In this document: positions 1,183 through 9,411 of the stretch, one piece after another
Layout of the letters: the number at the start of each line of letters is the position of its first letter
How positions within the stretch are numbered: the stretch's first letter is position 1
Source: a virus
Length of the DNA: 20,149 nt
Strand: one strand, 5' to 3'
Virus record (IMG/VR): IMGVR_UViG_3300025736_000268
Coordinates: 1 to 20,149 of that record
Notes under the pieces: model-generated
What the model saw: the letters and a program-made list of their open reading frames with translations, nothing else
The model's database searches: none
What the model was told of the DNA's origin: nothing
Translations under genes and position numbers: made by a program

Positions 1183-1444
1183 GTGTGGGTTCGATCAGGA
1201 TGTGGCCCTTGTAGTTGCAGGTGCCCTGGCCGAACAGTTGAACGAGACATATGGTGACAGTATTGACCCGGCTCTATGCGTCGCTGCGGTGAAGCAGTTC
1301 ATTGCCTCCGACGTTGATATTAAATGCCGTCACTGTGGCTGGCGTAGGCCCGGAACGAAGTTCTGTACGTTCCAAGGATGCCAAACCGGTGACGCCGACA
1401 AGTGTGGCCAGTTCAGGCACGTCTTTGAAGTGGTACGTAAATGA
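1100..1444 (+). CDS. Small cysteine-rich (putative zinc-binding) protein between terminase genes
   Basis: This 114-residue protein is of unknown function. Its C-terminal half contains Cys76-x2-Cys79, Cys89-x4-Cys94 and Cys102 (CRHCGW, FCTFQGC, KCGQF), which looks like a small zinc ribbon or knuckle. The N-terminal part is probably helical (DVALVVAGALAEQLNETYG). I chose ATG 1100 because GGGAGG lies at 1088-1093, six bases upstream. ATG 1094 is almost on top of that site, and ATGs at 1172 and 1175 lack a good one. With the 1100 start, the gene overlaps the end of TerS by 83 bases. Its TGA overlaps the TerL ATG (ATGA at 1441-1444), so it is probably translated together with both terminase genes. 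A role in packaging or as a nucleic-acid-binding accessory is inferred from context only. Confidence 0.7.
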   Translation: MLECELTQAGLTVYVRSQVRPRTKMMAECGFDQDVALVVAGALAEQLNETYGDSIDPALCVAAVKQFIASDVDIKCRHCGWRRPGTKFCTFQGCQTGDADKCGQFRHVFEVVRK

Positions 1445-3948
1445 GCCAACAGGTTGAGTGGCGACTAGATGAGACTGGTCAGCTTACCGCGTACATCGAC
1501 GGTACGCCGGCCGTCTGGTTCCCTCAGCCAGGAAGCCAAGAGGCTTTCATGCGGTGTCCCATATTTGAGACACTCCTCGCAGGAAACCGTGGCGGTGGTA
1601 AGACAGATGTGTTGCTGATGGACTTCGCCCAGCATGTTGGTAAGGGCTTCGGCGAAGAGTGGAAAGGCATCCTGTTTCGTCGGACCTTTCCAGAGCTTGA
1701 TGACGTCATCGGTAAGTCACTCAAGTGGTTCAAGAAGATCTGGCCGAAGGCCGAGTACAATAAGCAGGCAAAGACGTGGGTGTTTCCTGACGGCGAGACG
1801 TTGAAGTTCCGCCATATCAGCCGCCCGAATGAGTACTGGAGCTATCACGGGCACTCGTATCCGTGGATAGGATTTGAAGAGTTGACGACTTGGCCCAATT
1901 CAGACTGTTACACTCCGCTATTCTCGCTCTGTCGGTCTAGCCATATCGCCGCTGCCAAGCTCTGTGGAATCCGGGCCACCACAAATCCTTACGGATGTGT
2001 CCCATACGGAGAAGTCTTGACCGCAGATCGCGGATGGGCAGATATCAAGGACATTCGGCCCGGCGAATCTGTGGTTTCGGTGGATAAAGATGGCGTGGCG
2101 ATACGAAGTTCTGCCTATCCAGTGGTTCAGAAGTACGACGGAGCCATGATTAGCCGGAACGGTCGTGGCCTGAATATGGTATTTACCGAGGACCATAGGC
2201 TGCCCCACCTGAATACCAGTGGGGATAGTTTTACGATTAAGCACTTCCACGAGCTACCGGGGCAGGCAATCCTGAAACGCACCGCAGATGGGTGGGCCGG
2301 CACGGGGCCTGCAACAATTACTCCTGGAGTCACTGTGCCTGTTCGTAAGTTGAAGAGCAAACAAGTACCATCATTGACTGCCGTGCAGTATGCTGCGTTG
2401 CTCGGGTGGATGCTCTCTGAGGGTTGTCCAGTTTCGAGAGACAAGGCGTTCCAGATAGCTCAAAGCAAGAGCCACACTCGGCCAATCATTGAGCGACTTT
2501 TGGAGGATTGTGGGTTTACCTACAGGAAGGACCCCCAAGCGTTTATTATTACAGAGCCTAATTGGTCGAAACACTTTGAGCAGTTTGGGAAGTGCAGAGA
2601 TAAGTTTATCCCACAGGTCATAAAGAGCCACAATACTGGGGTACTGGGGGCACTACTTGACGCTCTGATGATGGGCGACGGCTGCGAGAATACCTACTAT
2701 ACGGCCTCGAAGCGGTTGGCCGATGATGTGGCGGAGATAGCCACCAAGCTGGGCTACGCTGTATTTGTGTCGTCTAGGCAAAGACCTGAACGCTCTGGAC
2801 TGTGCTATGCTGTGCACATGAGCGAGAATAGACAAACGCAGCTCAACACCGGAAATCATGTTTATGACGTTGCCACTTCGGTAAGGAAGTTGAATATCAC
2901 CAGAGAGTCTTTCGTGGGCGAGGTATACTGCCTTACCGTCCCGGATACCGAGACATTCTTTATTCGTCAGAATGGATGTGTGTGGCTAAGCGGGAATAGT
3001 GGCCATAACTGGGTCAAGAAGAGATTCCACCTGCCGATGGGTGAAGGTATGTTGATCGGCAAGGTTATCAAAGATGAGCGTGACGTACCAGAGGATGAGA
3101 AGGAAAAGCCTCGCGTCGCGATCAGGAGTTCACTCGCTGAGAATAAGATCCTCCTCATGGCGAATCCGACCTACGTGCAGACGCTGCGGGCTGCGGCTCG
3201 TAACCCTGCGGAGTTGGCCGCGTGGATTGAGGGCTCCTGGGATATTACCTCCGGTGGCATGTTCGATGACATCTGGAAAGAGGGTATCCATGTTATCCCG
3301 GATATCCCCTACATCCTACTCAGGAAATCAGGCTGGTTTCTGAATAGGGCCTATGACCACGGCCTATCAAAGCCGTTCTCGGTGGGTTGGTGGGCAGTGA
3401 GCAACGGGAATCCGATCACGGTCTTCGGGAAGCAGTATGGCGAGGTCAAGGGTGACATGTTCCTCTTTGATGAGTACTACGGATGCCAGACCGAGGACAA
3501 CAAGGGCCTGAACATGACGGCCCAGGAGATCGCGGCACAGATCAAGCTCCACGAAAAAGAGATGGGCATGCGGGGTCGGATCAAGAGAGGCCCGGCCGAT
3601 AGTGCGATCTTCTCGAAGTACGATGGCAAGAAAACGGTAGCAGGTGACATGAAGAAGGAAGGCGTCTACTGGGATGCAGTTGATAAATCCAGTGGGTCGC
3701 GTATCCAGGGCTGGCAGCAGATTCGTAACTACCTCACTGGAGCACTGCCTAACCCCAATGGTCCCCGAGAGAAGGCGGGCATCTTCATCTGTGATCGATG
3801 TCGCGACACCAGGAGAACAGTGCCGTGCCTTCCGCGTGACGATAAGAACTTGGATGATGTGAATAGTGAAGTTGAAGATCATGCTGGTGACATGATTCGA
3901 TATAGGCTACGATGGACAAGACGCTCTATAACTCAAAGGAAGTGGTGA
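1441..3948 (+). CDS. terL: Terminase large subunit (TerL) precursor interrupted by an intein
   Basis: TerL is the ATP-driven packaging motor and headful or site nuclease, docked on the portal. The ORF encodes 835 residues: an N-extein (1-185), a 334-residue intein (186-519) and a C-extein (520-835). Splicing would give a 501-residue TerL, a normal size. The ATPase domain shows Walker A at residues 47-55 (AGNRGGGKT) and a Walker B at 142-148 (WIGFEEL) with the acidic pair. Splicing rejoins the conserved coupling loop TTNPYG|SGHNWVKKRF. The RNase-H-like nuclease domain carries candidate metal-binding acids at Asp639 (AYDHG), Asp720 (PADSAIF) and Asp813 or Asp817 (EDHAGDMIRYR). The start overlaps the previous stop (ATGA). 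The portal gene follows after one base. The unspliced precursor should not be a working motor because the insertion splits the ATPase fold. Confidence 0.95.
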   Translation: MSQQVEWRLDETGQLTAYIDGTPAVWFPQPGSQEAFMRCPIFETLLAGNRGGGKTDVLLMDFAQHVGKGFGEEWKGILFRRTFPELDDVIGKSLKWFKKIWPKAEYNKQAKTWVFPDGETLKFRHISRPNEYWSYHGHSYPWIGFEELTTWPNSDCYTPLFSLCRSSHIAAAKLCGIRATTNPYGCVPYGEVLTADRGWADIKDIRPGESVVSVDKDGVAIRSSAYPVVQKYDGAMISRNGRGLNMVFTEDHRLPHLNTSGDSFTIKHFHELPGQAILKRTADGWAGTGPATITPGVTVPVRKLKSKQVPSLTAVQYAALLGWMLSEGCPVSRDKAFQIAQSKSHTRPIIERLLEDCGFTYRKDPQAFIITEPNWSKHFEQFGKCRDKFIPQVIKSHNTGVLGALLDALMMGDGCENTYYTASKRLADDVAEIATKLGYAVFVSSRQRPERSGLCYAVHMSENRQTQLNTGNHVYDVATSVRKLNITRESFVGEVYCLTVPDTETFFIRQNGCVWLSGNSGHNWVKKRFHLPMGEGMLIGKVIKDERDVPEDEKEKPRVAIRSSLAENKILLMANPTYVQTLRAAARNPAELAAWIEGSWDITSGGMFDDIWKEGIHVIPDIPYILLRKSGWFLNRAYDHGLSKPFSVGWWAVSNGNPITVFGKQYGEVKGDMFLFDEYYGCQTEDNKGLNMTAQEIAAQIKLHEKEMGMRGRIKRGPADSAIFSKYDGKKTVAGDMKKEGVYWDAVDKSSGSRIQGWQQIRNYLTGALPNPNGPREKAGIFICDRCRDTRRTVPCLPRDDKNLDDVNSEVEDHAGDMIRYRLRWTRRSITQRKW
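1996..2997 (+). mobile_element. Intein with LAGLIDADG homing endonuclease domain inside TerL
   Basis: This in-frame insertion (TerL residues 186-519) begins with Cys186 and ends with Asn519, followed by Ser520 as the +1 nucleophile. Block A is the region starting CVPYGEVLTADRGW. Block B holds the TxxH motif T249-E-D-H252. Block F is VGEVYCLTV with Cys497 at the position often held by Asp. Block G ends CVWLSGN with Gly, not the usual His, as penultimate residue. Between blocks B and F lie two dodecapeptide endonuclease motifs: ALLGWMLSEG (residues 319-328, acidic Glu327) and LLDALMMGDG (405-414, acidic Asp413). This predicts a class 1, self-splicing intein able to home into intein-less terL alleles. 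Both nuclease acids and the splicing residues are present, so it looks intact. The boundaries follow from the uninterrupted TerL motif TTNPxGxGHNWVKK. Confidence 0.93.
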
Positions 3949-3949
3949 T

Positions 3950-5383
3950 ATGAATAAGAAGGAAGCAACCGTAGCTACTCCTAGCCTCGCATACACGGCT
4001 ATGACCTCCCGGTGGTACAAGATGGACACGCTGCTTGGTGGAACTGAGGCCATGCGTGAGGCCGGCGAAGATATGGCCGCGAGGCATGAACATGAGTCAG
4101 AAGATCACTACAATGAGCGGATTGATGGCAACGTTCTGTTCAACATGGTTGACCTGACGCTTCGCACGTGGGTTGGCCGTCCGTTCGCGGATCAGATCCA
4201 GTACAGCGAGGACTTTGCACCGCACCTCATACCGCTGATGGATGATGTGAATATGAGCGGTGACAACCTCGACGTCTTCTCACGCCGATGGTTCCGTGAT
4301 GGCGTCGCCAAGGCATTCAGCCATGTGTTGGTTGAGTTTCCTCGCGTCGTCGCCGTTGCCCCCCGCTCGCTTGCGGATGATGACCGAATGAACATTCGCC
4401 CGTACCTCGTGCAGGTGTCGCCGGAACAACTGATCTTCGCACTGGCTGCTCGCGAGGATGGCAAGGAAGTGTTGCAGCATGTCCGGATCTCTGAGGAAGT
4501 CGTCGCCATGAATGGCTGGGAAGAGGTGGTGACAGAGCAGATTCGTGTTCTGGAGCTGGAGTACGTCAACACGGGCACTGATGAGGCCCCAGAATTTGAG
4601 CGTCGCGTTCGCGTGGACATCCACCAGGAGAATGATAAGCGTGAGTGGGTTATAGTTGAGTCGTGGCATATGGACATCGACTTCATTCCGCTTGTCACGT
4701 TCTATGCTGACCGCCAGGGCTTCATGGTGGGTCGATCTCCGTTGGATGACCTTGCTGACCTGAACATCCGTCACTGGCAGTCGATGTCGGACCAGATCTC
4801 GATCCTAACCGTGGCTCGGTTCCCGATGCTCGCTTGCTCGGGCGGCGACGATGAAGAGGGCAAGCTAATCATTGGGCCAAAAGAGTGGCTCTACACTCCT
4901 GATCCCTCAGCGAAGTTTTACTATGTCGAACACAAGGGTGCTGCCATCGCGGCCGGTGAAAAGGACATTGAAGGTCTTGAAAAGCGTATGCAGACCTACG
5001 GTGCCGAGTTCGCCAAAGATCGGCCAGACCGCGAGTCTGCAACTGCCCGTAATCTTGATACGTCTGAGGCAACGTCGCCTTTGCAAGATGTAACGTTCCG
5101 CTTCAACGATGCGTTGAACTTCGCGTTGTGGATGATGTCGTCCTGGATGCATAAACCGCACACTGGCAAGGCAGAAGTCCCGACTGAGTTCGCAAACCCC
5201 GAAGCGGTGGAACTGCAAACGTTGTACAACTCTTGGGTTGAAGGAGCCCTGACGACAGAAGAGTACTTGAAAGAATTGCAACGCCGTGGTGTACTGTCAG
5301 AACAAATTGTGAATTTCAAGAAGCCAAACCGTACCCCTGATACCAAGGAGATTAGGCCAGATGAAGATCCTGAAAAGAGTTAA
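3950..5383 (+). CDS. Portal protein (DUF4055-like)
   Basis: This 477-residue protein should form the dodecameric ring at the capsid vertex through which TerL pumps DNA, and to which the connector attaches. The N-terminal third resembles the DUF4055 portal family: a GTEAMREAGEDMAARH segment, then YNERI, then TLRTWVGRPFADQIQY. The middle is acidic and beta-rich, and a helical C-terminal part follows (from about residue 300). A Pro/Asp/Glu-rich tail ends the protein. It starts one base after the TerL stop, with an AAGGAAG ribosome site upstream. Its 3' end overlaps the scaffold gene by 23 bases. Size and position, directly after terL and before scaffold and capsid, fit the family. No protease domain is fused to it. 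Confidence 0.88.
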   Translation: MNKKEATVATPSLAYTAMTSRWYKMDTLLGGTEAMREAGEDMAARHEHESEDHYNERIDGNVLFNMVDLTLRTWVGRPFADQIQYSEDFAPHLIPLMDDVNMSGDNLDVFSRRWFRDGVAKAFSHVLVEFPRVVAVAPRSLADDDRMNIRPYLVQVSPEQLIFALAAREDGKEVLQHVRISEEVVAMNGWEEVVTEQIRVLELEYVNTGTDEAPEFERRVRVDIHQENDKREWVIVESWHMDIDFIPLVTFYADRQGFMVGRSPLDDLADLNIRHWQSMSDQISILTVARFPMLACSGGDDEEGKLIIGPKEWLYTPDPSAKFYYVEHKGAAIAAGEKDIEGLEKRMQTYGAEFAKDRPDRESATARNLDTSEATSPLQDVTFRFNDALNFALWMMSSWMHKPHTGKAEVPTEFANPEAVELQTLYNSWVEGALTTEEYLKELQRRGVLSEQIVNFKKPNRTPDTKEIRPDEDPEKS

Positions 5384-6161
5384 AGCACTGACCGAAGTCG
5401 ATACCAACCTGCACGTGTTCTACGAAGAGGACGCCGAAGCCGGTGGGTTCAAGCTTCGCACCGATGATATCACTGCCACGGCGATCTCCGTGATCTCTGG
5501 GCAGAACGCCGCCCTTATCGCGGCCCGTAACGAGGCGAAGTCCGCAAAAGACGCCGGCTCCGTCGATCTGTCGGCCCTGGCCGACTTCGGCACCGACCCC
5601 GCTGGGATCGCGACGGCTGTGGCAGCCAGGATTGATGAGCTGGCCAATGCAACGTCACAGGGTCAGAAGGAAGTCGCTGCTCGCATTGATGCCATCAAGA
5701 AACAGCATGCTGAGGCATTGACTGTCGCGACGTCCGCGAAGGATCTGGAGATCACGGCCCTGGGTAATACGCTGCACAACTACATGCTCGACACGTCGAT
5801 CCTGGGTGCCGCAGGTTCGTGGCCGGGCCTCAGTGCAAAGTTGGTTCAGCCGTTCGTCCGCCAGCACATGAAGGTGGCCGATGTTGAGGGCAAGCCCCGC
5901 CCGGTCGTCGTTGACGCCGATGGGCAGCCCCGCTACTCCAAGATGGCTGAGCGTGCCGGCGAGTTGATGCAGCCGGACGAATTGCTGCTTGAGATGTCAG
6001 AGCAGGCCGACTATCGCCAGCTCTTTCCGTCCCAGCAGGCAGCTCAGGGTGGTGGAGCCACACCCCCGAAGACGCCAGCGGGTGTGCGTCGTACTGATAA
6101 GACCGCGAACATGACCCCGGCCGAGAAGATCACCGCAGGACTGCCCGGCAACAAGAAGTAG
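5361..6161 (+). CDS. Capsid scaffolding protein (putative)
   Basis: This 266-residue protein lies between portal and major capsid genes, the usual place for the scaffold that directs procapsid assembly and is later lost. Residues 45-135 are rich in Ala, Lys, Glu, Asp and Gln with long helical, coiled-coil-like stretches (for example QKEVAARIDAIKKQHAEALT). The C-terminal part is polar and Pro/Gly-rich, ending in a basic tail (GLPGNKK), a feature often used by scaffolds to contact the coat protein. I see no Ser-His-Asp protease triad, so a separate maturation protease is not evident. ATG 5361 is preceded by AAGGAG at 5345-5350 and lies inside the end of the portal gene. A hairpin follows the stop. 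The assignment rests on position and composition; sequence identity of scaffolds is usually low. Confidence 0.75.
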   Translation: MKILKRVKALTEVDTNLHVFYEEDAEAGGFKLRTDDITATAISVISGQNAALIAARNEAKSAKDAGSVDLSALADFGTDPAGIATAVAARIDELANATSQGQKEVAARIDAIKKQHAEALTVATSAKDLEITALGNTLHNYMLDTSILGAAGSWPGLSAKLVQPFVRQHMKVADVEGKPRPVVVDADGQPRYSKMAERAGELMQPDELLLEMSEQADYRQLFPSQQAAQGGGATPPKTPAGVRRTDKTANMTPAEKITAGLPGNKK

Positions 6162-6327: not shown

Positions 6328-7245
6328 ATGGCATCAGTAACCCTCGCTGAATCGGCCAAGCTTTGCCAGGACACTCTGGTAGCCGGCCTGATTGAGAGCG
6401 TCATCACTGTCAACCACATGTACCAGCTCATGCCCTTCGACGGGATCGACGGCAACGCCTTGGCGTATGACCGCGAGAACGCCCTCGGCGACGTTGAGAA
6501 CATCGCCGTTGGTGGGACTATCACCGCGAAGAACGCCGCGACCTTCACTCAGATCACGAGCACGCTGGTTAAGATCATCGGTGACGCAGAGGTCGATGGC
6601 CTGATCCAGGCTACCCGCTCTGGTGTCAATGACCAGACCGGTATCCAGATTGCGTCCAAGGCGAAGAGTGCCGGCCGCAACTACCAGAACATGGTCATCA
6701 ACGGCACCGGTGCAGGCAGCGAGTTCAACGGCCTCATCAACCTCTGTGCTGCCGGCCAGAAGGCCACCACCGGCGTCAACGGCGGGGCCCTCAGCTTCGA
6801 GTTCCTGGACCACACGATGGACCTTGTCACCGCGAAGGATGGCGACGTGGACTATATCCTGATGCATTCCCGTACGATCCGTTCGTACAAGAGTCTGCTT
6901 CGGGGCCTGGGTGGCGTGACCATGCAGGAAGTCTTCGAGCTGCCCAGCGGCCGTAACGTCCCCAGCTACTCCGGGGTGCCCATTCTGCGGAATGACTACA
7001 TCCCGATCAACCAGACCAAGGGTACGGGCTCGGGCCAGACCACGGTCTTCGCCGGCGTTTTCGATGACGGCGACATGAAGACCGGCCTCCTGGGCCTCAC
7101 CGCCCGCAACGCCTACGGCCTCCAGGTCGCGGATGTTGGCGAGTCCGAGACCAAGGATGAGCGAATCTGGCGTGTCAAGTGGTACTGCGGCTTGGCTCTG
7201 TTCAGCGAGCTGGGGCTGGCCTGTGCGGACGGCATCACCAACTAG
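6328..7245 (+). CDS. Major capsid protein (HK97-fold type)
   Basis: This 305-residue protein should form the icosahedral shell. It matches a common phage major-capsid group with these landmarks: N-terminal LAESAKLCQDTLVAG; MPFDGIDGNALAYDRE (residues 35-50); GDAEVDGLIQATRS (85-98); DQTGIQIASKAKSAGRNYQ (102-120), probably the long spine-helix region; HSRTIRSYKSLLRGLGG near the middle; SYSGVPILRNDYIP; FAGVFDDG; and RVKWYCGLALFSELGLA at the C-terminus. There is no long cleaved N-terminal delta domain, which fits a separate scaffold gene upstream. ATG 6328 has an AAGGAG six bases upstream. The gene has its own promoter and a strong terminator after it, as expected for the most abundant virion protein. 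Codon use is distinctly GC-ending, unlike the neighbouring endonuclease gene. Confidence 0.93.
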   Translation: MASVTLAESAKLCQDTLVAGLIESVITVNHMYQLMPFDGIDGNALAYDRENALGDVENIAVGGTITAKNAATFTQITSTLVKIIGDAEVDGLIQATRSGVNDQTGIQIASKAKSAGRNYQNMVINGTGAGSEFNGLINLCAAGQKATTGVNGGALSFEFLDHTMDLVTAKDGDVDYILMHSRTIRSYKSLLRGLGGVTMQEVFELPSGRNVPSYSGVPILRNDYIPINQTKGTGSGQTTVFAGVFDDGDMKTGLLGLTARNAYGLQVADVGESETKDERIWRVKWYCGLALFSELGLACADGITN

Positions 7246-7257
7246 ATTGAAACCCTC

Positions 7258-7290
7258 GGAGGGGCCGACTTTGGCCCCTCCTCTTTTCTG
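7258..7290 (+). terminator. Intrinsic terminator after the capsid gene
   Basis: A nine-base-pair GC-rich stem (7258-7266 with 7273-7281, GGAGGGGCC/GGCCCCTCC) with a six-base loop is followed by TCTTTTCT. It starts 12 bases after the capsid stop. It should partly terminate or stabilise the capsid transcript before the decoration-like genes. Confidence 0.8.
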
Positions 7291-7299
7291 GAGTGTATA

Positions 7300-7857
7300 A
7301 TGTCAATCTGGACCCTCACTCTTCCTGAAACGGCCAAGTCGCTTCTGCATAACGGCATCGATACGATGATCGTTGAAGCGGACTCGGCTGCCCAGGCGAA
7401 GGTTCTCGCAGAAGCTTACAGTTCAGTGGACACAAACACTCCCTGGGCCGATGCAACCGCTGTCACGCTGGCTCAAGATCTTGAAGGCGTCGTCTTTACG
7501 ATCGTCGTAGACGCCGACGACACGCCGGCAACCTTCGCGTACACCGCAGTGGCCGACGACACTTGGGCCGACGTGGGTGCTGCTCTGGAACTTCTTACCG
7601 AAGTGACCTACACCTCGACCTGGACGCCGGAAGCAACGCATGGCCTCGTGGGTACGCTGCTCGTCGCGACTGGTGGTGGCACGGACGACGTCGGGGATAA
7701 GACCCTAGCCGCCACGGCCACCGGGCCCAACGGCGAAGACCTGACCGCGAAGTTCTTCGGGAACATTGTGTCCGAAGGTGAGTCAACGGATAATCTGACT
7801 GTGGACATTCTGTCAACAGTTACATCTCTGCGGGTCATTGGGGCCTACAAGAGCTAA
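7300..7857 (+). CDS. Putative capsid decoration protein, paralogue 1
   Basis: This 185-residue acidic protein directly follows the major capsid gene and its terminator. It is rich in Ala, Thr, Val and Asp, with no Cys, membrane segment or enzyme motif. That fits a beta-sandwich structural protein. It is clearly related to the next protein along its length. Both start with LPxTAKxxLxxGxDTxxVxAxS and continue AAxAKxLxxAY; both have a central DN/DVGDxT segment; both end with FGxIxxEGxSxDxLxV. Position after the capsid gene suggests a head-surface decoration or stabilising protein (like lambda gpD in role, not in sequence). A head-fibre or early tail role is not excluded. The ribosome site TGGAG at 7289-7293 is six bases before ATG 7300. 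I do not recognise a named family. Confidence 0.7.
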   Translation: MSIWTLTLPETAKSLLHNGIDTMIVEADSAAQAKVLAEAYSSVDTNTPWADATAVTLAQDLEGVVFTIVVDADDTPATFAYTAVADDTWADVGAALELLTEVTYTSTWTPEATHGLVGTLLVATGGGTDDVGDKTLAATATGPNGEDLTAKFFGNIVSEGESTDNLTVDILSTVTSLRVIGAYKS

Positions 7858-7869
7858 CACGAATTGATC

Positions 7870-7883
7870 TCAGCTACGGCTGA
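7870..7883 (+). other. Small UACG-tetraloop hairpin between the paralogues
   Basis: TCAGC (7870-7874) pairs with GCTGA (7879-7883) around a TACG loop closed by C-G, a stable UNCG-type tetraloop. It lies in the 45-base gap between the two paralogues. No T-run follows, so it is more likely an mRNA-protecting hairpin than a terminator, and it may be chance. Confidence 0.3.
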
Positions 7884-7902
7884 ATGAAAGGATCATAACA
7901 CG

Positions 7903-8469
7903 ATGGCACTATACCACGTAATACTGCCGGTAACGGCAAAGACTGTCTTGACGGAAGGCAAGGATACGGCTGTTGTAGCTGCGGCCTCTGCTGCCGATGC
8001 CAAGCAACTCATGAAAGCCTACCTCGGCCTGCCCAGTGACGCCGCGTGGGCGGCTGCAACTGTGACCGCTCTCACTGAGGATACGGACTTGGAAGATTGG
8101 CGTGCGACTGTCACGGTCAAGTCTGCCGCTGGGGCAGTGCTGGAGTCAGTGACTGTCACTGCTGCATCGGGTGGGAATTTCGACGCCATCGGGGCTCTGC
8201 TGGTTACTGCGTTGAACGCCTGCACGCTCATTGCCGGTGCCGCGTATTCGACCCCGAACCTCACGGTTGCTGGGACCGCGGACAACCTGGGTGATAACAC
8301 TGTCGAAGTGTCGTTCCTGCCTCCGGCCACCTGGGACGGTGACACCATCGTGCTTGCCTCGTTGTTTGGCACGATCACTCACGAAGGAGCGAGCGGTGAT
8401 GCACTGGCAGTGGTCATGCTGGACACTAAGCTCCCGGAGATCCTGTACCAGCTCAACTCCGGACACTAA
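7903..8469 (+). CDS. Putative capsid decoration protein, paralogue 2
   Basis: This 188-residue protein is the tandem paralogue of the gene before it. The N-terminus (LPVTAKTVLTEGKDTAVVAA, then SAADAKQLMKAY), the central NLGDNTVEVSF segment and the C-terminal FGTITHEGASGDALAVVML align collinearly with the first copy. The middle and the last dozen residues have diverged. It has a Trp-containing acidic stretch (DTDLEDWRATVTV) and one Cys, but no catalytic or membrane feature. The start ATG 7903 is preceded by GAAAGGA about ten bases upstream. A strong hairpin follows the stop. The likely role is in the virion head surface, inferred from position. The pair may occupy different sites on the shell or form a hetero-oligomer. 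It could alternatively be another virion protein, as no family is recognised. Confidence 0.7.
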   Translation: MALYHVILPVTAKTVLTEGKDTAVVAAASAADAKQLMKAYLGLPSDAAWAAATVTALTEDTDLEDWRATVTVKSAAGAVLESVTVTAASGGNFDAIGALLVTALNACTLIAGAAYSTPNLTVAGTADNLGDNTVEVSFLPPATWDGDTIVLASLFGTITHEGASGDALAVVMLDTKLPEILYQLNSGH

Positions 8470-8481
8470 GATCGATTGATC

Positions 8482-8512
8482 GGGCCCAGGACGTCCCTGG
8501 GCCCCTACTTTA
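8482..8512 (+). terminator. Hairpin terminator, copy 1 of a repeated element
   Basis: GGGCCCAGG (8482-8490) pairs with CCTGGGCCC (8496-8504) around ACGTC, followed by CTACTTTAT. It lies between paralogue 2 and the next gene. The 26 bases 8479-8504 recur exactly at 12459-12484. The T-tract is weak, so partial termination or mRNA-end protection is possible. Confidence 0.7.
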
Positions 8513-8527
8513 TAAAAGGAGAGATCC

Positions 8528-8944
8528 ATGAGTCACACCACAATCCGCATGACCCTGACAGGAGCACTCGCGGGCAAGACAATCGCACTGGGTAACATGC
8601 AATTCGTTAAAGGGCTGGCCGATTTTTCTGGGCAAGCCGAAGATGTCGCCGGCATGATTACCTACTACACTCGAAGCTATCAAGTGAATATCTCGACGCC
8701 GGGAAGCGAACACGTGGACCCTATCGTGGAGCCCAAGCCCGAGCCGGTGGTAGTGGCCGAGCCCCAAGAGCCGAATGAACGGCAGGCCAAGATCATCGAA
8801 GTCGTCAACATGATCGACAAGGATGAGTGGGTTGACAAGCATGCGACGGCACACCCCAAAGTGAAGGAAGTCTCTGAGTTGATGGAAGACCCCACCGTAA
8901 GCAAAGCTGAAATCGTAGAGGTCATCGAGATATGGTTGAGCTAA
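8528..8944 (+). CDS. Unknown two-part protein in the head module
   Basis: This 138-residue protein is not recognised. Residues 1-55 look like a small beta-rich unit (IRMTLTGALAGKTIALGN). Residues 64-86 form a Pro/Glu/Val-rich linker (EPKPEPVVVAEPQEP). Residues 87-138 are charged and helical (NERQAKIIEVVNMIDKDEW and then VSKAEIVEVIEIWLS). The layout suggests two small modules joined by a flexible, extended linker. A strong AAAAGGAG ribosome site is six bases before ATG 8528. The gene lies after the decoration-like pair and before the connector genes, so a virion or assembly role at the head or neck is plausible. Its 3' end overlaps the HNH gene start by 13 bases. Confidence 0.65.
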   Translation: MSHTTIRMTLTGALAGKTIALGNMQFVKGLADFSGQAEDVAGMITYYTRSYQVNISTPGSEHVDPIVEPKPEPVVVAEPQEPNERQAKIIEVVNMIDKDEWVDKHATAHPKVKEVSELMEDPTVSKAEIVEVIEIWLS

Positions 8945-9411
8945 AACTCGCCAAGCGATTTTGGAAGAAGGTGTGCATTGGGGGTGCAGACCAATGTTGG
9001 GAGTGGTCTGCTTACCGAAACTGGCAGGGATACGGAAAGATTTTTGTCAATGGTAAAGCCGTTAATGCTCAGCGGGTGGCGTACTGCTTGGAGCATGATC
9101 TTTCCTTACAGGACATTGAAGGTAGGCTGATTCTACATTCGTGTGACAACCCTGGGTGTGTGAACCCCAAACATTTGCGATCTGGAGATCACCAGGCAAA
9201 TTTGGAGGACATGCAGACCAGAAAACGTGAAGCGATGCGGGTTGGTGAGCAGAACCCTAACAGGAAATTGAGTATGGAGATCGTGCGGATCATTCGCCAG
9301 AAGTATACTTCTGGCGAGGCCAACGGCGTGCAACTCGCAAAAGAGTTTGATGTCCACAGCTCTACGATATATGATATGTTGCGTGGTAAGACTTGGAGCT
9401 TTGTACTATGA
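8932..9411 (+). CDS. Free-standing HNH homing endonuclease
   Basis: This 159-residue protein should nick or cut DNA at a related locus lacking it and so spread by homing. It has the order seen in phage HNH proteins. An N-terminal CWEWSAYRNWQGYGKIFVNG segment is followed by QRVAYCLEH. The HNH core is LHSCDNPGCVNPKHL (His69, Cys71, Cys76, Asn78, His81). Then comes HQANLEDM with Asn90. The C-terminal half (about 107-159) looks like a DNA-binding helix-turn-helix (VQLAKEFDVHSSTIYDMLRGKTW). Family members usually have AHRVAY where this one has AQRVAY. The gene overlaps the upstream gene by 13 bases and the downstream connector gene by 4 (ATGA), so it rides on their transcript. It is more AT-rich than its neighbours, consistent with later insertion. 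No intron surrounds it. Confidence 0.9.
   Translation: MVELKLAKRFWKKVCIGGADQCWEWSAYRNWQGYGKIFVNGKAVNAQRVAYCLEHDLSLQDIEGRLILHSCDNPGCVNPKHLRSGDHQANLEDMQTRKREAMRVGEQNPNRKLSMEIVRIIRQKYTSGEANGVQLAKEFDVHSSTIYDMLRGKTWSFVL

Follow-up and report, generated by a model that had tools for sequence, protein, structure and literature searches.

A tandem pair of genes behind the capsid gene

The window, meaning the whole stretch of DNA analysed here, is a virus record of 20,149 bases that holds the head and tail block of a tailed phage. The gene for the major head (capsid) protein (6328..7245, + strand; 305 aa) has a product that matches PHROG 212, major head protein (E 3.9e-70), and that is 67% identical to the major head protein of Pseudomonas phage MP1412, so that the comparison with MP1412 is a close one; a search of solved structures with the capsid protein alone returned no relative at E 0.01. 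Directly 3′ of it lie gene A (7300..7857, +; 185 aa), which we regard as an accessory paralogue encoding a decoration-like virion protein, and gene B (7903..8469, +; 188 aa), which we regard as the core copy and which is nearest to YuA gp57; the capsid protein would presumably form the lattice that A and B bind. The next gene (8528..8944, +; 138 aa) encodes a homologue of the YuA gp58 family (PHROG 6213, E 3.6e-8; 40% over 48 residues to MP1412_58), which is also found 3′ of B in relatives. Indeed, the order of capsid, gp57, gp58 and head-tail adaptor genes is common to the phages MP1412, PAE1, YuA and Ab19 and to the group around the window. In the window, an ORF (8932-9411) that looks by eye like an HNH endonuclease lies between the gene for the gp58 homologue and that for the adaptor; of the loci examined, only the near-identical contig L002 shares it, and a comparison with NCBIfam gave no match.

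A sequence-only reading of this DNA had described two adjacent proteins of 185 and 188 residues that share three collinear motifs. Both reading frames are present as described, and so are all three motifs (at residues 8, 30 and 153/155). BLASTP aligns A with B end to end at 32% identity (185 columns, E 4e-7). The Smith-Waterman score of the pair is 179. Shuffling A 2000 times gave scores with a mean of 47.6 that never exceeded 87 (none ≥179), and the 13 other window proteins scored 26-53 when compared with A or B. Furthermore, B searched against the whole window record matches itself and A alone (A at E 1.6e-12). A and B are true paralogues.

Terminator-like hairpins lie on either side of the pair. 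The first, in the gap between the capsid gene and gene A (7258..7281, +), has a 10-pair stem and a T-rich tail (fold −22.5 kcal/mol, z −2.6), and a comparable hairpin occupies the gap between the capsid gene and the first copy in 8/8 two-copy and 4/4 one-copy loci examined. The second lies 3′ of gene B (8482..8504, +; z −3.6), and a similar one is found 3′ of B in 11 of the 12 loci examined, the twelfth ending before the site. In the relatives examined, the gap between the two genes holds no comparable hairpin. Two such hairpins between 6000 and 9500 do not exceed the number obtained from shuffled sequence (2.5), so that conservation in place is the sole argument for them. Promoter-like matches in the same interval number five, against a shuffle mean of 1.4, and none of the five falls within the A/B block. 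Since the hairpins flank the A-B pair with none comparable between the two genes, the arrangement suggests joint expression of A and B that is in part separate from that of the capsid gene. The stem of the second hairpin (CCCAGG/CCTGGG) is very similar in most relatives, often with an ACGT loop, and is more alike among them than a plain terminator would need.

Family membership and the history of the two copies

The sequence-only reading had recognised no named family for either protein. By profile comparison, however, A and B belong to a known, little-studied family that includes the YuA virion protein gp57: PHROG 15312, annotated as virion structural protein, matches both B (9.7e-22, residues 13-172) and A (9.9e-5, residues 15-170), whereas Pfam and NCBIfam gave no accepted match for A or B. 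YuA belongs to the family Mesyanzhinovviridae, and its gp57 is known to be in the virion from the annotation of the YuA record, which carries the note "phage particle protein". By tblastn against phage records, B matched 45 (44 Pseudomonas phages and one Sphaerotilus), with none of the matches spanning more than 80% of the query, and A matched none. Foldseek against viral models gave one strong match for B (A0A411BB20, 40% identity), the rest yielding nothing below 0.06. YuA gp57, MP1412_57, PAE1_10 and Ab19 gp56 are homologous to B over most of their length (40-45% identity) and occupy the same place behind the capsid gene as A and B; family members lie directly 3′ of the major head protein gene and 5′ of the gp58 homologue. 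In the open-licence literature, as covered by titles, abstracts and some passages, we found no report of a tandem pair of this family, and no virion proteomics or capsid structure for a two-copy phage.

Scans of viral contigs yielded 11 distinct A-bearing contigs besides the window; one of them ends within A, and B is the next gene in the remaining 10/10. Five contigs, representing four distinct sequences (L034, L035, L036/L037 and L040), carry the capsid gene followed directly by B, and four of the five, which are fragments, gave a single match each when searched whole with the family profile. As these four close relatives keep B alone, A appears to be optional and B the core copy. MP1412, PAE1, YuA and Ab19 likewise have one copy each, of the YuA type, as do contigs L045-L048 and L051/L052, whereas the window group has B and a divergent A. 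Because one-copy and two-copy relatives have a similar capsid protein, they form a natural contrast from which the contribution of a second decoration protein could be read.

The full-length family tree has 30 rows. It unites the eight A proteins in a single clade (100/100) and places B together with the one-copy relatives in another (100/100). The family trees omit the near-copies L026 and L037, the partial A of L038 and the copy of L048, and the capsid tree omits L027, in which the capsid frame is broken into three. An exclusive clade of the B proteins of two-copy phages is rejected (p 0.018), and the two-copy phages are not a clade on the capsid, adaptor and portal trees (AU p 0.0025, 0.010 and 0.022, respectively). 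It follows that A has come and gone, or has been exchanged, among members of the group, whereas B was retained. Contig L049 carries a tandem pair of its own (4953-5519 and 5566-6135), one gene further from the capsid gene, and this pair forms a separate clade (99/94), so that the gene family has probably been duplicated in tandem at least twice.

An N-terminal module and a C-terminal domain

The sequence-only reading had proposed structure prediction for each protein, and the AlphaFold2 models (mean pLDDT 81 for A and 74 for B) gave not unrelated folds but the same predicted order of strands and helices. Each model was built from an alignment holding both groups, and the likeness of the models therefore fits a shared fold but is not independent proof of one. 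Near residue 58 the models switch from an alpha-beta module to a beta-rich domain, and the joint between the two modules is placed there. The N-terminal module (N-module; residues 1-58, 7300..7473 in A and 7903..8076 in B, both +) is predicted in both models, with moderate confidence (block pLDDT 64-81), as strand-helix-strand-helix-strand. The C-terminal beta-rich domain (C-domain) comprises residues 59-185 of A (7474..7854, +) and 59-188 of B (8077..8466, +). Foldseek against the PDB gave neither model a match at E ≤0.001, and the structure matches from VIA reached at most Z 6.9, under the tool's informative level. They include flagellin, GbpA and tail sheath (Z 4-7) and Ig domains (Z under 7) for the C-domain and ribosomal matches for the N-module (Z 4-5), and we claim kinship with none of them; among the structure matches listed there was no chain like pb10 or like lambda gpD, the beta-tulip cement protein that sits as a trimer at local three-fold axes, which is uninformative as an exclusion. 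Two AI-designed TIM barrels matched the family profile in the search of solved structures (E 1e-6 and 4e-6) and were treated as an artefact, because each of their repeats scores ~10 bits against residues 4-38, with none of the stretches passing by itself.

The gene 3′ of the capsid gene was compared in 17 phage records with a capsid region. It encodes a full-length relative in 4/17 (MP1412, PAE1, YuA and Ab19), the N-module almost alone in another four (Bhz59, 91 aa; DLP4, 77 aa; Mallos, 75 aa; VBv52, 83 aa), and the N-module joined to a different, repetitive C-terminal part in two (MW2, 253 aa; Elanor, 213 aa). The other 7/17 records show no recognised relative 3′ of the capsid gene (PaMx28, ZQG1, MD-2021a, Fanboy, ZY21, RHph_N1_10 and Cyrano), and the gp57 family is therefore not universal. 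DLP4 was missed by the family profile and joins the set through PHROG 30814 (1e-46), with a marginal match to PHROG 15312 (0.013). In hhalign, the N-module profile matched the short proteins at 97.7% (E 1.6e-12; ≤19.4% in 30 column shuffles), and the short proteins matched the MW2/Elanor profile at 96.8%; the direct match between the family and the MW2/Elanor profile is weak (28.8%, 28 columns), the link running through the short proteins. With the N-module behind the capsid gene in 10/17 records, this module most likely binds the capsid lattice and would act as the capsid anchor. The annotated starts of YuA gp57 and MP1412_57 omit ~24 residues that correspond to the start of the N-module in PAE1 and the full-length relatives, and an in-frame ATG lies upstream (L010 4539-4608 and L006 7815-7887).

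The C-domain is also found away from the capsid gene. The tail-tube protein of Brevundimonas phage Fanboy contains a clean insert of ~118 residues that matches the C-domain of A and B (L020 6493-7552, L053 3494-5371); it aligns to hmm positions 51-145 with an E-value of 3.8e-13 for the stretch alone and 1.4e-9 in the first search. The Fanboy and window tail tubes are otherwise collinear (34% over the first 150 residues and 41% over the last 326). Together, the short N-module proteins and the Fanboy insert indicate that each half is used without the other in nature. Since the C-domain varies, is absent or sits on another part of the virion, it is most likely a displayed, outer domain.

The gp57 record says no more than that this is a phage particle protein, and connector genes lie in the same block, so A and B might instead be internal head, neck or connector proteins rather than surface proteins. 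Against such a role, the two genes lie 3′ of the capsid gene and 5′ of the gp58 homologue, the adaptor being a separately identified gene further on; the tail-tube insert argues against it as well, a domain of that size being presumably more easily placed outside the tube than within it. Furthermore, the weak fold matches obtained for the C-domain often involve exposed domains, from flagella or from phage tails, and we consider an internal or neck location quite improbable.

Mean identity between A and B is 34.9% for the N-module and 26.5% for the C-domain, although among the A proteins, and likewise among the B proteins, conservation is higher in the C-domain than in the N-module. The difference between A and B, N-module minus C-domain, is +8.9 points with a bootstrap interval of −0.6 to 19.1; the anchors of A and B may thus have stayed somewhat closer than the displayed domains, a likeness that is borderline. 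When N-modules are taken from the same phage, A-B identity is 36.4%, as compared with 34.7% across phages (p 0.077), and the corresponding test for the C-domains gives p 0.73. These values give no support to gene conversion or to co-adaptation of A and B within a phage. They also bear on the idea of an obligate hetero-oligomer of A and B forming one coat unit, which would agree with B being the next gene in all 10 of the A-bearing contigs that reach past A. The same-phage comparison speaks against such a unit, however, and B alone persists in four distinct sequences; we judge obligate pairing to be very unlikely.

Domain-wise trees place A differently. In the N-only tree A joins B (99/94) and is separated from the YuA type, and in the C-only tree A lies outside B and the YuA type (86/81), while AU tests reject neither alternative grouping (p 0.13 and 0.25). 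With these p values and the long branch of A, a domain-swap origin of A was not adopted and is at most a suggestion.

Orthologous pairs of A have dN of 0.03-0.56 with dS of 0.5-3 or saturated, the clearest pair (L025-L027) having a dN of 0.034 against a dS of 0.53, and gene A is apparently under purifying selection in these pairwise comparisons; B, too, is apparently under selection. The two proteins could still be redundant, with one function and one site between them, A being retained only for added dosage or as a spare copy that drifts. They share a predicted topology, they are likely co-transcribed given that no strong hairpin separates them, and close relatives do without A. Nevertheless, A and B fall into separate clades and show no homogenisation, the pairwise comparisons point to purifying selection on A and the C-domains differ to the extent given above, so that redundancy appears unlikely. 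Separate, old A and B clades would fit specialisation of the two copies.

A decoration-type layout

A small N-module joined to an exchangeable C-domain, encoded behind the capsid gene, is a layout that the comparisons above support as that of decoration proteins, and "decoration protein" is the best reading of A and B. We consider it reasonably likely that they are paralogous head decoration proteins with the N-module docked and the C-domain outward, B being the core and A an optional second copy. In such an arrangement, the N-module of ~60 residues would dock on the lattice of the major capsid protein, and the beta-rich C-domain would face outward. B would be the core copy of the YuA gp57 type, and A an old, optional second copy with a B-like anchor and an outer domain that diverged or was exchanged. 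A phage with both copies would then show two surfaces, or fill two classes of site, on one capsid. We infer an outer-surface position, an anchor role for the N-module, co-occurrence of A and B in one virion and a division of labour between them.

Among known systems, T5 pb10 is described as binding the capsid through an N-terminal domain (resolved residues 2-68) and exposing a C-terminal one (PMC5292684, PMC11313276), and thus, as far as these accounts go, it is a small protein with an N-terminal anchor and a displayed C-terminal domain, as proposed for A and B. The pb10 anchor is all alpha-helical, whereas the N-module is predicted with three strands besides its helices, and a sequence search of solved structures with the family profile gave no pb10 match. 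Proteins of the pb10 type are further marked by an Ig-like C-terminal domain and by binding at the centre of capsid hexamers. A conserved capsid-binding domain is likewise described with displayed domains in T4 Hoc, whose fibre is acidic (PMC10385173), and with a variable set of displayed domains in Sf14 gp20 (PMC11821841). Strong acidity is shared by all 16 proteins of the eight complete A/B pairs (net charge −13 to −26), as reported for the Hoc fibre (PMC10385173). The anchor of Hoc is C-terminal, whereas the presumed anchor of A and B is N-terminal; furthermore, the displayed domains of Hoc and gp20 are strings of Ig-like domains, and no sequence link to A and B was seen. By analogy, A and B probably resemble T5 pb10 and T4 Hoc in layout and not in fold, with a different anchor fold.

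The sequence-only reading had gone further, proposing a duplicated and specialised head-surface protein that makes up a two-component coat. The paralogy of A and B, their membership in a virion protein family and their decoration-type layout speak for this proposal, but some close relatives have B and lack A. A two-component coat, if real, is therefore an option and not a requirement, and for phages with both genes it is plausible and a fair hypothesis on the present sequence comparisons. In T4, the capsid gene itself is duplicated, gp23 and gp24 taking different capsomer positions, and the decoration proteins Soc and Hoc are unrelated to each other. gp23 and gp24 are shell proteins, however, whereas A and B are decoration-like. 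Two decoration proteins on one capsid are described for T4 (Soc and Hoc; PMC5694885) and for Sf14 (gp33 and gp20, with different folds; PMC11821841). These coats pair different kinds of protein, whereas A and B are paralogues.

More tentatively, A and B could belong to a modular display kit, in which one anchor carries interchangeable outer domains, which are also grafted onto the tail tube, and duplication of the unit in the lineage of the window gives two different surfaces per capsid; we regard this as possible but doubtful. Each of the two surfaces would perhaps have its own class of capsomers on an elongated head. Such a head, of 85 x 60 nm, is reported for the YuA-like phage Ab18 (PMC4482731). 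A display kit, if true, would amount to a two-component coat built from paralogues, of which one is core and the other optional. The natural split into anchor alone, anchor with another tail and outer domain on the tail tube suggests that the N-module might serve as a capsid tag of ~60 residues.

Elsewhere in the block, the large terminase gene of the window (1441-3948) is split by an intein, with the C-terminal splicing region TIGR01443 scoring above its cut-off at residues 494-514. By eye, the terminase of relative L001 (25-2562) has inteins at two other places, one of them at the Walker A motif, and that of relative L003 (1075-2577) has none.
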